A program made the translations under genes and the position numbers. 62,093 nucleotides of DNA from Salipiger bermudensis HTCC2601 (GTDB lineage Bacteria > Pseudomonadota > Alphaproteobacteria > Rhodobacterales > Rhodobacteraceae), in NCBI RefSeq assembly GCF_000153725.1, contig NZ_DS022276.1:531733-593825 (forward strand), in the 5' to 3' direction. The notes beneath the pieces were generated by a model. The model had not been told where the DNA came from and did no database searches. It was given only the letters and a program-made list of their open reading frames with translations. Shown piece by piece: positions 5,804 through 55,025 of this stretch (position 1 is the first letter of the stretch; each line of letters starts with the position of its first letter).

Positions 5804-5870
5804 CTTCTCTGGTTCGAAAATACCTCGGGGGGAGTCGCAGCTCCGCTGCGGCGGGGGCGGCGCCCCCTCA
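5804..5870 (+). repeat. Rhodobacteral intergenic repeat, copy 1
   Basis: The unit reads TTCTCTGGTTCGAAAATACC, then a G-run, a short inverted pair, and GGGGGCGGCGCCCCC. Relatives occur at 5969, 13241, 17261, 46876, 54788 and 54876, and a diverged form at 39030. Most lie just after a gene end. Confidence 0.75.
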
Positions 5871-5968
5871 CCGCGCTGCAAGTGGCGCAACGCTCCGCAC
5901 AGCTTCGCGCGCCCGGCTTTGCCAGCCCTTCAACGGTGCGACGCTTCAAGCAGCGCAGCCCCCCAAGC

Positions 5969-6030
5969 TTCTTCTGGCCAGAAATATCCCGGGGGAGGCC
6001 GCGGCACGCGGACGGGGGCAGCGCCCCCAT
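5969..6030 (+). repeat. Rhodobacteral intergenic repeat, copy 2
   Basis: TTCTTCTGGCCAGAAATATC is followed by a G-run, an inverted pair and GGGGGCAGCGCCCCC. It has the same orientation as copy 1 and lies between the GntR gene and the convergent FAD oxidoreductase gene. No gene is visible in the 292 bases between them. Confidence 0.75.
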
Positions 6031-13240: not shown

Positions 13241-13309
13241 GCGGGGGCTGTCTGCCCCCTCGCGCGACGGGGCGCGCTCCCCCCGAGGATATTTTCGGCC
13301 AGAAGAAGC
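13241..13309 (-). repeat. Rhodobacteral intergenic repeat, copy 3, inside the sox operon
   Basis: The reverse complement reads TTCTTCTGGCCGAAAATATC, a G-run, then an inverted pair and GGGGGCAGACAGCCCCC. It separates soxD from soxA, so the repeat is transcribed within an operon. Confidence 0.75.
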
Positions 13310-17250: not shown

Positions 17251-17260
17251 CGCCCCCGTC

Positions 17261-17321
17261 TTCTCTGGTTCAAAAATACCTCGGGGGAGTCGCCCTCGGG
17301 CGACGGGGGCAGCGCCCCCTC
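17261..17321 (+). repeat. Rhodobacteral intergenic repeat, copy 4
   Basis: TTCTCTGGTTCAAAAATACC, a G-run, CGCCCTCGGGCG, then GGGGGCAGCGCCCCC. It starts 10 bases after the ccmI stop and ends 23 bases before ruvX. Confidence 0.75.
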
Positions 17322-18048: not shown

Positions 18049-19122
18049 TCACGCGCCCCGCACGATGATGTCGTCCGGCTGGATCTCCTCGGCGGTCTGG
18101 ACGAAGATCGAGTAGGTCTGGCCGCCCGCGGTCAGGGCGATCTCCGTCAGGCTCCTGCCGTAGACTTCGCTGAAGGCCGGCTCGCCGATGACCAGCTCCG
18201 CGTCCTCGAGGTCCGGCCCCGGGACATCGAACAGGATCGCGTCCTCGCCGGGCAGGAAATCCAGCACCACCCCCGACATGCTGCGGTCCCCGGTCAGGTC
18301 GCCGACGAACAGGTCGCTGCCGGCCCCGCCATAGATCTCGATGCCCTCCGCCAGGATGACATCGTCGCCGGCATCGCCGCTGACATAGCCACCGGCACCG
18401 ACATCGATGGTGTCGTTGCCCTCGCCACCCGAGGCGTAGATCGACGCGTCGATCCCGGTCTCGCCTGCCACGATCAGGTCGTCCCCCTCGCCCCCGAGCG
18501 CGTCGACATAGGCGTCCTCGTCGGTGAGGTAGATCGCGATCGTGTCGTTGCCCTGATCGCCCGAGACCTGCGCGTTGCTGTTGTCGACCAGCATCAGGTC
18601 ATCCCCCAGCCCGCCATAGACCTCGTTGAAGGGCAGCTCGTCACCGCTTTCTTCGCTGATCACGATGGTGTCGTTGCCCTCGTCGCCCCAGGCGCGGTCG
18701 CCGCCAAGCCCGGTCTCGATCAGGTCGTCCCCCGCGCCGCCCTGGATCAGATCCGGCCCGACCCCGCCACGCAGGAGGTCGTTGCCGTCTTGGCCGTCGA
18801 TCTCGTCGGCGCCCGCATTGCCCGCAAGGAAGTCGTTGCCGTCGCCGCCCAGAAGCGTGTCGTTGCCATCGTTGCCACGTACCCAGTCGGGGCCGCCAAG
18901 CGCGTCGATCAGGTCGTTGCCAGCGCCTCCCTCGACGGAGTCGGCATTGTCGGTGAGCACCGCGGAGTCGTCATCGTCGCCGAGCGTGCCGACGATCGGC
19001 TCTTCGGGATCCGTCTCCGGCGCATCAGAGTCGTCATCGCCACCACCGTCACCACCGTCACCGCTGCCAATCAGAGAAATTCCCAAGACACCAAGCGAAA
19101 GAAGCAAAAGAACTTCGAGCAT
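18049..19122 (-). CDS. RTX/hemolysin-type calcium-binding repeat protein
   Basis: This 357-residue acidic protein starts with a hydrophobic segment (MLEVLLLLSLGVLGISLIG). A Gly/Asp spacer follows, then many GGxGxDxxx nonapeptides (GGAGNDLID, GNDGNDTLL, GGDGNDFLA, GGAGDDLIE), which form calcium-binding beta-rolls. The last 70 residues (VLDFLPGEDAILFDV, TEIALTAGGQTYSIFVQTAEE) resemble the globular end of such proteins. ATG at 19122 has AGGGA upstream at good spacing; a TTG six bases earlier is the alternative. The N-terminal membrane or signal segment is unusual for type I-secreted RTX proteins. No type I secretion genes are nearby. The exact role is unknown. Confidence 0.82.
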   Translation of the reverse strand: MLEVLLLLSLGVLGISLIGSGDGGDGGGDDDSDAPETDPEEPIVGTLGDDDDSAVLTDNADSVEGGAGNDLIDALGGPDWVRGNDGNDTLLGGDGNDFLAGNAGADEIDGQDGNDLLRGGVGPDLIQGGAGDDLIETGLGGDRAWGDEGNDTIVISEESGDELPFNEVYGGLGDDLMLVDNSNAQVSGDQGNDTIAIYLTDEDAYVDALGGEGDDLIVAGETGIDASIYASGGEGNDTIDVGAGGYVSGDAGDDVILAEGIEIYGGAGSDLFVGDLTGDRSMSGVVLDFLPGEDAILFDVPGPDLEDAELVIGEPAFSEVYGRSLTEIALTAGGQTYSIFVQTAEEIQPDDIIVRGA

Positions 19123-38539: not shown

Positions 38540-39097
38540 CTAGCGTCCTGCCCCACGCAGCCAGTACCAGACAAACGCCGGGATCTCGCGCAGCATCGCC
38601 CTTGCCTGAGCGCCCATCCGCGCGCCCCCGAGGCCCGGCGCCGCCCCGCGTGCCCTGAGCCCCAGCCGCCGCGCCACCAGCAGCGCTCGCGGCAAGTGAT
38701 AGGCCTCGCTGACGATCACCACGTCGTGCGCGCCCATCTCTTCCAGAACCGGGAGCGCGAAACGCAGGTTCTCCTCCGTCGTGGTCGACCGGTCCTCCCG
38801 GAAGAGCGCCTCCTCCGGCACCCCCGCCTCGCGCGCCAGCCGGCAGATCACCTCGGCCTCGGACGGCGCATGCGCGCCCTCTCCTCCACAGCCGAGGATC
38901 GCCCCGACCTCGCCCGACTGCCACAGCGCCACCGCGCGCTTCGCCCGCCGCCGCAGCGTCGGAGACGGCTCGCCCCCCGGCCACACCGCTGCCCCGAGCA
39001 CCACCGCCACCGGCAGCGCCGACCTCTGCTCTTCTCTACGTCGACAAATACTCAAATCCCGACCATCCCGGCCCTCACCACCACTGGGCACACGCAC
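38540..39097 (-). CDS. YdcF/SanA-like DUF218 family protein
   Basis: This protein of up to 185 residues has the DUF218 core: VAVVLGAAVWPGGEPSPTLRRRAKRAVALWQSGEVGAILGCGGEG, then EDRSTTTEENLRFALPVLEEMG and VVIVSEAYHLPRALLVARRLG. DUF218 proteins act in or near the envelope and some influence vancomycin or envelope tolerance. The start is uncertain. The ATG at 39097 lies beyond a copy of a local repeat (39030-39070), and the family core begins near an in-frame GTG at 39010. A missing N-terminal membrane helix suggests possible truncation or repeat insertion at the 5' end. Confidence 0.72.
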   Translation of the reverse strand: MRVPSGGEGRDGRDLSICRRREEQRSALPVAVVLGAAVWPGGEPSPTLRRRAKRAVALWQSGEVGAILGCGGEGAHAPSEAEVICRLAREAGVPEEALFREDRSTTTEENLRFALPVLEEMGAHDVVIVSEAYHLPRALLVARRLGLRARGAAPGLGGARMGAQARAMLREIPAFVWYWLRGAGR

Positions 39098-39203
39098 CGC
39101 AGCGCCCGCCCGATCCCGCAGCCACCCCGCGCCCCACCTCCCCCGAGACGCGCCGCGCTCCTGTCTTCTCTACGTCGGTAAATACTCACATCCCGACCGC
39201 CCC
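39030..39203 (+). repeat. Diverged intergenic repeat, two copies
   Basis: TCTTCTCTACGTCG, a two-base difference, AAATACTC and ATCCCGACC occur at 39030 and 39165, 135 bases apart. The pattern TTCTCT..CG..AAATAC.TC is a diverged version of the repeat family seen at 5804 and 17261. Confidence 0.6.
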
Positions 39204-39265
39204 AAGCAAAAGCACCGCCGGGCAGATGCGCCGGCGGTGCCAGTGACCAGTCAAAGCCCAAGAGC

Positions 39266-45653: not shown

Positions 45654-48110
45654 TCAAAGCTCATCGCGCACCGCCCGGATTGCCCTCAGCACGCGCTCCG
45701 GTGTCGCCGGCGCGTCGAGTGCCGGATAGCGCGTGCCGCAGGACGCCACCGCGTCCGACAGTGCCAGGAAGGCCGAGATGCCCAGCATGAACGGCGGCTC
45801 GCCCACCGCCTTGGAGCGATAGATCGTCTCTTCCTCGTTGCGCCCTTCCCAGAGCGCCACGTTGAATATCTCGGGCCGGTCGGAACAGGCCGGGATCTTG
45901 TAGGTCGAGGGCGCATGGGTGCGCAGCCGCCCGTCTTCGTCCCAGACCAGCTCCTCGGTGGTGAGCCAGCCGGCGCCCTGCACGTAGCCGCCCTCGATCT
46001 GGCCGATATCCAGCGCCGGGTTCAGCGAGGCGCCGCAATCGTGCAGGATGTCGGTGCGCAGGATGCGGTACTCGCCGGTCAGGGTGTCGAGCACCACCTC
46101 GGTGCAGGCCGCGCCATAGGCGAAGTAGAAAAACGGCCTACCCTGCCCCTTGATCCGGTCCCACGCGACCTTGGGCGTCTTGTAGAACCCGGTCGACGAC
46201 AGGCTCACCCGCCCCTCGTAGCAAAGCTTGGCCGCCTGCGCGAAGCTCATCGTCTCGCTTCCGACCGTGACCTCCCCGCCGGCAAAGGCGACCTCCGAGG
46301 TCTTGGCCTGGAATAGCCCCGCCAGATGCTCGGCCATGCGGTCGCGGATGGTGTCGCAGGCGGCCTTGACCGCCATGCCGTTCAGGTCCGAGCCCGAGGA
46401 GGCGGCGGTGGCCGAGGTGTTGGGCACCTTGGCGGTGTCCGTTGCGGTGATCCGCACCATATCGAGCGGCAGGCCGAATCGCGCCGCCGCCACCTGCGCC
46501 ACCTTCTGGAACAGCCCCTGCCCCATCTCGGTGCCGCCATGGTTCAGCGCCACCGAGCCGTCCTGGTAGACATGCACCAGCGCACCGGCCTGGTTGAGGT
46601 GGGTGAGCGTGAACGAAATGCCGAACTTCACCGGCGTCAGCGCGATGCCGCGCTTCAGCAGCGGCGTGCCCACGTTCCACTCTGCCACCCCCGCGCGCCG
46701 CGCCGCGTAGTCGCAGCTCTCGGCCAGCCGTTCGGTCAGTCCGCCAAGGATGAAATCCTCCACGGGCTGGCCGTAATGCGTCACCTGCCTGTCCGCCGGC
46801 ACGCTGGGCGCAGGTCCCGCGGGCACGCTCGACACCGCCCCGCGCGAGGTCAGGTCCTCTTCCGCGGCAGCCTGTTTCTTCTGGCCGGAAATATCCTCGG
46901 GGGGAGGTGCCTGCTCCGCAGGCGCCCGGGGGGCAGACAGCCCCCCGTCCAAACTCTCCACCGCGCCGACATCCGAGTAGTAGTTCAACCGCCGGATCTC
47001 CAGCGGATCGCGCCCCAGCGCATGGGCCACGTGGTCGAGCACCCGCTCGATCCCCAGCATGCCCTGCGGCCCGCCAAAGCCGCGATAGGCGGTGGCGCTC
47101 TGGGTGTTGGTCTTCAGCCGGTGGCTCTCGACCCGCAGGCTGGGAATGTCATAGGCGTTGTCCGAGTGCAGCATGGCCCGGTCCGCCACCGGCAACGACA
47201 GATCCTGCGCCCAGCCGCAGCGGGCATATTGCACGAAATCCACCGCCTTGAGGCGCCCGTTGCCGTCGAAACCGGCGCTGTACTCGATACGGAAATCATG
47301 GCGCTTGCCGGTGATCACCATGTCATCGTCGCGGTCGTAGCGCATCTTGGCGGGCCGTCCGGTCTCGGCCGCCGCCACGGCGCAGGCAATGGCCAGCGCG
47401 TTGCCCTGGCTCTCCTTGCCGCCGAAACCGCCGCCCATGCGCCGGGTCTCGACCCGCACGCCATGCATCGGCAGGTGCAGCGCGTGCGCAACCTTGTGCT
47501 GGATCTCGCTCGGGTGCTGGGTCGAGCTGTGCACCAGCAGGTCGCCGTTTTCCTGCGGCAGCACCATGGCGGCCTGCCCTTCGAGGTAGAAATGCTCCTG
47601 CCCGCCCATCTCGAGCGTGCCCGAGACCGTGTGCTCCGCCTCGGCCATGGCGGCGTCGGCGTCGCCCTTCTCCCAGATCCGCGGGCCGTCCTCGAAGCGG
47701 CTGTCGGCGGCCATCGCCTCGTCGACGGTCAGCACCGCGTCGCGCGGCTGGTAGCTGATCTTCGCCTTGCGCACCGCCTTGCGGGCGGCGAGGTGGCTGG
47801 TGGCCGCGACCATGAAGATCGGCTGGCCGACGTAATGCACCGAGGCCCCGGAAAGCAGCGGCTCGTCATGCAGCGAGGGAGAACAGTCGCAATCCGAGGG
47901 CAGGTCCTTGGCCTCCCAGACCTTCACCACGCCGGGCGCACGGCGCACCTCGGAAAGGTCGATCTCGCGGATCCGGCCCGAGGCGATCTCCGACAGACCG
48001 AAGGCCATGTGCAGGCAGTTCGACGGCACGGGGATGTCGTCGATGTAGCGGGCCTTGCCGGTCACATGCAGCGGCGCCGCGTCATGCGGCAGCGGTTTCG
48101 TAACGCTCAT
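45654..48110 (-). CDS. xdhB: Xanthine dehydrogenase molybdopterin-binding subunit, with in-frame repeat insertion
   Basis: This 818-residue catalytic subunit oxidises hypoxanthine and xanthine. It begins with the small hammerhead domain (TGKARYIDDIPVPSNCLHMAFGLS), then shows GQPIFMVAATSHLAARKA, RMGGGFGGKESQGNALAIACA near residue 240, and the C-terminal LNHGGTEMGQGLFQKVAQVAA, YGAACTEVVLDTLTGEYRI, GGYVQGAGWLTTEELV and KAVGEPPFMLGISAFLAL with the active-site Glu. Rhodobacter XdhB is about 777 residues. The excess of about 40 lies near residues 387-430 (APRAPAEQAPPPEDISG, QKKQAAAEEDL) and is encoded by the intergenic repeat. Start ATG 48110 overlaps xdhA as ATGA. Confidence 0.94.
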   Translation of the reverse strand: MSVTKPLPHDAAPLHVTGKARYIDDIPVPSNCLHMAFGLSEIASGRIREIDLSEVRRAPGVVKVWEAKDLPSDCDCSPSLHDEPLLSGASVHYVGQPIFMVAATSHLAARKAVRKAKISYQPRDAVLTVDEAMAADSRFEDGPRIWEKGDADAAMAEAEHTVSGTLEMGGQEHFYLEGQAAMVLPQENGDLLVHSSTQHPSEIQHKVAHALHLPMHGVRVETRRMGGGFGGKESQGNALAIACAVAAAETGRPAKMRYDRDDDMVITGKRHDFRIEYSAGFDGNGRLKAVDFVQYARCGWAQDLSLPVADRAMLHSDNAYDIPSLRVESHRLKTNTQSATAYRGFGGPQGMLGIERVLDHVAHALGRDPLEIRRLNYYSDVGAVESLDGGLSAPRAPAEQAPPPEDISGQKKQAAAEEDLTSRGAVSSVPAGPAPSVPADRQVTHYGQPVEDFILGGLTERLAESCDYAARRAGVAEWNVGTPLLKRGIALTPVKFGISFTLTHLNQAGALVHVYQDGSVALNHGGTEMGQGLFQKVAQVAAARFGLPLDMVRITATDTAKVPNTSATAASSGSDLNGMAVKAACDTIRDRMAEHLAGLFQAKTSEVAFAGGEVTVGSETMSFAQAAKLCYEGRVSLSSTGFYKTPKVAWDRIKGQGRPFFYFAYGAACTEVVLDTLTGEYRILRTDILHDCGASLNPALDIGQIEGGYVQGAGWLTTEELVWDEDGRLRTHAPSTYKIPACSDRPEIFNVALWEGRNEEETIYRSKAVGEPPFMLGISAFLALSDAVASCGTRYPALDAPATPERVLRAIRAVRDEL
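46876..46950 (+). repeat. Rhodobacteral intergenic repeat, copy inside the xdhB coding sequence
   Basis: TTCTTCTGGCCGGAAATATC, a G-run, an inverted pair (GTGCCTGCTCCGCAGGCGCC) and GGGGGGCAGACAGCCCCCC lie in frame in xdhB. The reverse-strand translation is APRAPAEQAPPPEDISGQKK. It is the same family as the copies at 5804, 5969, 13241, 17261 and 54788. Confidence 0.85.
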
Positions 48111-54787: not shown

Positions 54788-54910
54788 TGGGGGGCGCTGC
54801 CCCCCGGCCTGGCGGCCTCCCCCGGGATATTTTGTGCCAGAAGAAACCAGGGCGGGTGGGGAGTGCGGCGCCCCTGTCTTCTTCTGGCTCTAAATATCCC
54901 CGCCGGAGGC
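54788..54910 (-). repeat. Rhodobacteral intergenic repeat, full copy and half copy
   Basis: At 54788-54846 the reverse complement reads TTCTTCTGGCACAAAATATC, a C/G-run, an inverted pair and a GGGGGCAGCGCCCCCC hairpin. At 54876-54910 a forward half copy reads CTTCTTCTGGCTCTAAATATC. The two heads point outward from a short spacer. Confidence 0.7.
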
Positions 54911-55025
54911 ATCCGACACAAGCCGCAGGATGTAACGCCGGGCCGCTGCACACCGCCGGTCGCTTGCCCCCGCACGCGCAAGCGGCTAAGGGGGGCGCGC
55001 AATCTGGACGAGCCCGGAGCCCGCC

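Follow-up and report, generated by a model that had tools for sequence, protein, structure and literature searches.

The gene for the molybdopterin subunit of xanthine dehydrogenase (xdhB) of Salipiger bermudensis HTCC2601 contains a complete REP-like element that is read in frame as part of the protein. We consider it probable that a member of a REP-like family of the Rhodobacteraceae was inserted long ago into a linker of the enzyme and has since changed together with the other copies in its genome, most likely via a putative trans-acting factor that the copies share. The gene and the element are found in the window, the stretch of 62,093 nucleotides that was analysed, at the following positions:

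45654..48110, minus strand: xdhB, molybdopterin subunit of xanthine dehydrogenase, 818 amino acids, 2457 nucleotides (Pfam; 1JRO chain B)
46875..46946, minus strand: complete REP-like element in frame, 72 nucleotides, XdhB residues 389-412, GGLSAPRAPAEQAPPPEDISGQKK
46928..46946, minus strand: hairpin 1, GGGGGGCTGTCTGCCCCCC, GGGGGG-CTGTCTG-CCCCCC, encodes GGLSAP
46909..46923, minus strand: hairpin 2, GCCTGCGGAGCAGGC, GCCTGC-GGA-GCAGGC
46875..46896, minus strand: tail GGATATTTCCGGCCAGAAGAAA, encodes DISGQKK; a C run lies between hairpin 2 and the tail

XdhB has the Pfam domains PF01315 (Ald_Xan_dh_C), PF02738 (MoCoBD_1) and PF20256 (MoCoBD_2), and its best match, by sequence as well as by fold, is chain B of 1JRO, the xanthine dehydrogenase of Rhodobacter capsulatus. 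A preliminary description of this region had assigned positions 46876-46950 to a repeat family and had them translated as part of XdhB at residues of about 387-430. Both assignments hold, since 46875-46946 is a full member with two hairpins and tail and encodes residues 389-412. The proposal that the insert forms a tolerated loop agrees with the AlphaFold model (alignment of 38 sequences, mean pLDDT 73), in which residues 382-436, located between MoCoBD_1 and MoCoBD_2, have a pLDDT below 50 and are without secondary structure. The repeat-bearing linker is modelled as disordered, and the protein would tolerate the element because the linker is such a disordered surface loop. The length of the protein had also been taken as a sign of an insertion of about 40 residues. 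It is indeed longer than its counterpart in R. capsulatus (818 versus 777 amino acids), but this is poor proof of an insertion, because equal lengths are reached by linkers that lack the repeat (53 amino acids from NYY to TPY in most Ruegeria) and because the R. capsulatus linker, GGLSAPPSPPEPIATKK (protein only), itself looks like a decayed copy, judging from its residues.

The repeat family has a layout of two hairpins and the tail GGATATTTnnGGCCAGAAGAAG. It was defined with 49 distinct copies from the S. bermudensis genome, obtained from 55 places listed at up to three mismatches and aligned on the tail. GGATATTT and GCCAGAAGAA are near-invariant across these copies, partly because the search pattern fixed those letters, and the two to three letters between them are free; the hairpins upstream of the tail differ in sequence from copy to copy. 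Genome-wide, 51 copies were found at up to one mismatch versus none for the reversed control. The core TTCTTCTGGCCnGAAATATCC has five sites in the window at up to three mismatches (5969+, 13287-, 46876+, 54825- and 54879+), and none were found in 100 shuffles of the window. The other copies listed in the preliminary description, at 5804, 5969, 13241, 17261 and 54788, are all real. Two of them (5804 and 17261) represent a sister variant of the same layout, with the tail CTTCTCTGGTTC..AAAATACC and then the hairpins. The copies outside xdhB are:

5804..5868, minus strand: sister variant between predicted genes, tail CTTCTCTGGTTCGAAAATACC
5968..6028, minus strand: intergenic family copy, tail CTTCTTCTGGCCAGAAATATCC, then hairpins
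13243..13308, plus strand: copy between genes, CTGTCTG subtype, the closest in type to that in xdhB
17259..17319, minus strand: sister variant between predicted genes
54788..54846, plus strand: copy between genes that forms one arm, the first, of an inverted pair
54878..54912, minus strand: CCTCCGGCGGGGATATTT type, second arm of this pair

The sites 54825- and 54879+ form this inverted pair, and more such pairs occur genome-wide; the xdhB copy stands alone. Members of the repeat superfamily are common in the family: a general tail pattern matched once or more in 105 of 198 family genomes (nearly one per genus), where genomes with one or two matches may owe them to chance, because the reversed control also gave one match each in 4 of the 198. 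Two 84-nucleotide copies at 39016-39233, which are 74% alike, lie 134 nucleotides apart and contain CTTCTCTACGTCGACAAATACTC, may represent another, third tail variant of this superfamily. Another set of repeats in the window, four direct repeats of 32 nucleotides with GTGTCGTTGCCCTC or near it, is found inside a predicted gene at 18405-18937; presumably these resemble calcium-binding nonapeptide repeats. A known RNA family was also considered and rejected: Rfam gave no match at the gathering score in the window, and two sub-threshold matches over 46840-46990.

The location of the copies relative to genes was determined with gene calls from a simple gene finder of our own, whose codon model had been trained on the window. 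In S. bermudensis 47 of the 49 copies are located between genes, 18 of them in convergent, 25 in tandem and 3 in divergent gaps, and one next to masked sequence, with a single flanking gene. The two copies in gene calls are the one in xdhB and L027, the latter probably the result of a mispredicted start. Thirty of the 91 copies in the congener G017 were looked at, of which one is in xdhB and one in a weakly scored gene call. Coding copies outside xdhB look rare. Within the tandem gaps, 13 copies are oriented along transcription and 12 against it (counted by eye); because this orientation is even, we regard a role as RNA terminator or as strand-specific mRNA element as unlikely.

Within xdhB the DNA itself is conserved, not the peptide alone, and the peptide is not the main conserved thing. 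Pairwise comparison of the window genome, G004 and G005 gave 0 differences in the 72 nucleotides of the repeat versus 8-9% over the rest of xdhB, and at third positions 0 of 24 versus 17-19% elsewhere in the gene. Only 6 of the 2359 segments of 72 nucleotides in this trio are without variation, and all six lie over the repeat. Codon choice points in the same direction. If the motif x-Ile-Ser/Leu is defined at the protein level, it is found in 41 linkers, and its Ile codon is ATT in 37 of them (35 repeat-bearing linkers and 2 worn copies), the other four being the unrelated KIS of Nioella; elsewhere in the same xdhB genes ATT has a share of 15% of the Ile codons. Six of the 41 repeat copies have lost Ile-Ser/Leu and have another residue there. 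A chance resemblance was rejected on account of the shuffles without a match, the invariance of the 72 nucleotides in the trio and the choice of ATT.

The pairing of hairpin 2 is a supporting line of evidence, not a decisive one. The stems differ in sequence among the orthologues and pairing is mostly kept. The stem was tested in 26 linkers (24 distinct) of the 41, a sample without six tail-only linkers and without those that its pattern missed or that were extracted later; its mean length is 5.25 bp versus 2.86 bp for shuffled bases, and 17 of the 24 distinct copies have at least 5 bp, the stem being shorter or absent in seven (L099, L101, L130, L142, L151, L156 and L048). The stricter null, in which random codons encode the same peptide, gave P <0.05 in 5 of 18. 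Since this peptide-preserving null is unimpressive, the evidence from the stems rests on the shuffled-base test and the variety of pairs. The same result would fit a purely protein-level explanation, in which an ordinary Pro/Ala/Glu linker resembles the repeat by accident, as would the disordered and variable nature of the linker. This explanation is nevertheless extremely improbable, since ATT is used in 37 of 37 Ile-Ser/Leu of the repeat type, synonymous changes are entirely missing in the trio, the core has no chance matches in shuffles, and the tail letters follow those of the own genome, as described below.

The protein also leaves a mark on the element. The base after TATTT is C (mostly giving a Ser codon) in 37 of the 41 xdhB copies versus about 30% of the 49 S. 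bermudensis copies, and the second base after TATTT, which is a third codon position, varies among the xdhB copies. All that XdhB seems to need is that the frame stays open and, in most cases, that Ile is followed by a Ser codon.

The insertion is not confined to this strain: a recognisable copy was found in 41 of 95 XdhB linkers, all from Rhodobacteraceae in the broad sense. The 95 distinct genes come from 20 congeners and 80 named loci, with 5 duplicates removed, and the set is biased to close relatives, because the named loci were limited to the best 80 of 573 relatives; closest among these 80 is XdhB of Salipiger bermudensis (94%). A frame-blind DNA pattern identified 38 of the 41 repeat-bearing linkers and three were added by eye, while nine doubtful remnants were scored as being without repeat. 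Copies are present in Salipiger, Roseivivax, Mameliella, Roseovarius, Pseudooceanicola, Actibacterium, Thalassovita, Pelagimonas, Marinovum and others. Of the 20 Salipiger genomes, nine have the repeat, G003 has a worn copy, in three (G001, G002 and G014) a copy cannot be recognised, and the remaining seven have another palindrome in the linker. The element is dispensable for the enzyme, since these three genomes are without it and the seven others have a different palindrome instead. The xdhB gene of G015 (L048/L051) has its halves in different frames, with the break near the end of the linker, and looks frameshifted or wrongly assembled.

The second palindrome, GTCCCCGCGGGGAC or near it (VPAGT), occurs with one to five units in the xdhB linkers of G006, G007, G010, G011, G012, G016 and G018 (L042-L047 and L050). 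With the xdhB units counted, GTCCCCGCGGGGAC has 33 sites in G010, 42 in G006, 43 in G012, 52 in G011, 53 in G016 and 57 in G018; there are 4 in G007 and 15 in S. bermudensis, and the reversed control gave none in the same eight genomes. Six of the sites in the window genome (G000) are located within 2.7 kb at C3:48761-51484, and similar clusters are present in G004:C9, G005:C12 and G001:C7.

The tail of the xdhB copy tends to carry the variant of the own genome's repeats. The tails differ between lineages, with GAAC-AGAAGAAG in Thalassovita, ACCA-AGAAGAAG in one MAG, GACG-AGAAGAAG in Roseivivax, GACG-AGATGAAG in Pseudooceanicola pacificus, GGGC-AGATGAA in Puniceibacterium, and GCAG or GCCA in two Mameliella. 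The P. pacificus tail GACGAGATGAAG was noticed in xdhB first and afterwards in the genome, which has 46 pattern matches; five of the five among the matches listed have GACGAGATGAAG. Agreement was tested with only those four letters that every search pattern leaves free, using 16 genomes (G000 and 15 reached via loci; G022 and G032 were left out) with 5-14 listed copies per genome. The xdhB tetramer is found exactly among the listed copies of the own genome in 11 of the 16, versus 11% in other genomes, and none of 100,000 label permutations reached this value; the five without a match are G024, G030, G034, G035 and G036. A cruder test with 14 columns also beat all of its 20,000 permutations, but in it the own genome is not always the best match, being first in only 6 of 16 cases by mean identity and in 11 of 16 by nearest copy. 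We infer from this a concerted evolution of the xdhB copy with the genomic family, brought about by selection through a factor or by gene conversion.

How many insertions underlie these copies can be judged from their position and their type. Place, orientation and codon phase are the same in all 41 recognisable copies, and a strict pattern applied to all 95 linkers found 33 forward tails, all in one phase, and no reverse one. Since place, orientation and phase are common, and since 19 of the 41 also have the hairpin-1 subtype CTGTC[TC]G in common, we infer that one old insertion underlies most copies. At an early time, probably prior to the separation of many of the genera compared, a REP-like element would have been inserted into the flexible linker that joins the two molybdopterin-binding domains, and it would have been inherited, replaced or lost since then. 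Replacement is suggested by the different 5´ arm in the linkers L145, L146 and L157. On a quick XdhB tree, built without the linker, presence and absence of the repeat require a minimum of 13 changes, which rises to 18 if three states are distinguished, gains and losses not being told apart and a second count omitting the nine doubtful remnants; repeated entry or exchange is therefore possible.

It might also be that the linker is a hot spot into which resident repeats insert again and again, so that tails match the own genome because each copy is young. The changes on the tree and the different 5´ arms would fit such recurrent insertion, and so would the own-genome tail match and the unrelated palindrome GTCCCCGCGGGGAC that fills the same linker in seven Salipiger, six of them with 33-57 sites in the genome. 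Still, we regard this as unlikely, because orientation and phase agree in 41 of 41 copies although the core looks open in six frames (by eye), because the subtype of hairpin 1 shared by 19 of the 41 xdhB copies occurs as CTGTCTG in 3 of the 49 S. bermudensis copies, the one in xdhB counted, and because xdhB is the only clear intragenic one of these 49. In addition, the xdhB copies of the two Mameliella, G021 and G028, have common junctions: the 3´ flank of 17 nucleotides, CCCAGGAATGTCACGCC, is identical, and the 5´ flank, GA.CCGATGG.G, differs at 2 of 12 positions. This agreement looks like one insertion. The tails and hairpin 2 of the two copies differ between the species, and the tails follow the respective genomes.

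As to what changes the copy together with its genomic relatives, most likely all copies would be sites for the same putative trans-acting nucleic-acid-binding factor, the preference of which would shift from lineage to lineage. Nearly as likely as a cause would be ectopic gene conversion among the copies. The full alternative, in which ectopic recombination with other copies, or replacement of the whole element, overwrites the old insertion and the site is not selected at all, seems rather doubtful to us. It would account for the Mameliella copies, where hairpin 2 and tail both differ next to an identical 3´ flank, as a replacement tract would give. However, homology between copies is short (about 22-75 nucleotides), and potential donors are missing among the copies compared: the xdhB hairpin 2 is absent from 19 others of 41 copies in G021 and from 20 of 40 in G028, a comparison by eye that covered about half of the copies, and none of the 49 S. 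bermudensis copies is a donor identical over the whole element (by eye).

A search for other coding copies, as had been suggested, gave a limited yield: nothing clear among the 49 copies of S. bermudensis apart from xdhB, and one further gene in the two Mameliella. This second coding copy, consisting of the tail only, is located in the acyltransferase region of a polyketide synthase (PKS) and encodes Ile-Ser:

G021:C35:228500-230600 and G028:C2:1107900-1110000: PKS coding copies L251 and L252

The frame is open across the whole 2.1 kb examined. The tail has GGAG, a variant also common in G021, versus GCCA in G028, a switch that parallels the one in xdhB and that gene conversion would explain as well. 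Since the PKS copy shares this codon phase although its gene is unrelated to xdhB, the common phase of the xdhB copies is no proof of a single insertion; the protein may favour this phase.

These coding copies lead to a further idea, which we put forward tentatively. They might be working DNA or RNA sites, whose hairpins and tail are recognised by a putative factor of the Rhodobacteraceae, and a drifting preference of this factor would force the codons of XdhB and of the Mameliella PKS. If true, part of the amino-acid sequence of an enzyme would be dictated by a genome-wide non-coding site. With a copy in 41 of 95 orthologues and a coding copy that tends to change together with the intergenic ones, xdhB offers a natural experiment on the upkeep of a REP-like family, which poses the question of selection by a binding factor versus recombination. 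It is also a case of a protein sequence following a nucleic-acid constraint, and the sequences of XdhB linkers should not be taken as protein adaptation.

Neither this repeat nor one inside xdhB is described among the papers listed by our search of the open-access literature, with subscription papers mostly outside it. Intragenic REPs are already known and, in the portions of the literature available to us, are treated mainly as tolerated insertions where they are discussed; one that is this old and homogenised is new within the open-access literature searched. According to the available text of PMC3733652, GTAG/CGTC-tagged REPs are short, palindromic and mainly intergenic, have convergent or tandem neighbours and form inverted dimers. 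Some are located inside ORFs, and different REPs were found at about the same recB site in two Xanthomonas species (PMC3733652, same text). The Salipiger family is similar in being short, palindromic and mainly intergenic, in its neighbours, which are mostly convergent or tandem, and in having inverted pairs and an intragenic copy, and the features of REP/BIME in the broad sense, many mostly intergenic copies, palindromic stems and inverted pairs, are all present. No GTAG/CGTC tag stands out at the stems in the consensus of the 49 copies; in a non-systematic look, several copies then have an arm CTTCTCTTCGTCAAAAAT that contains CGTC. In contrast to these REPs, S. bermudensis is without a PF01797 transposase, and the coding copy in xdhB is spread across many genera and tends to follow the variant of each genome.

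PF01797, which we take to be the Y1 transposase family that includes RAYTs, is absent from 17 of the 20 genus genomes, S. bermudensis among them, and present in G003, G008 and G009; among 14 other genomes tested it is absent from 11 and present in G026, G031 and G033 (G017 is in both sets). A usual RAYT-mobilised REPIN was rejected for the S. bermudensis genome, which is without PF01797. In other respects the family is similar to the REPIN/RAYT systems, which, as far as the consulted part of PMC8049555 describes them, consist of inverted pairs of a conserved core, have lineage-specific variants and persist as a sequence population. Inverted core pairs, lineage-specific variants and persistence as a sequence population are likewise found here.

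The preliminary description had also drawn a parallel to the palindromic elements of Rickettsia (RPEs), which occupy many Rickettsia genes. RPEs are repeats inserted in frame in protein-coding genes, as stated in the available text of PMC3733652. The analogy is fair for the phenomenon, since a coding insertion in frame is seen here too, in xdhB and in the PKS gene of two Mameliella. Unlike RPEs, the repeat described here occupies one or two genes, but it does so across a family and with a constraint at the DNA level.
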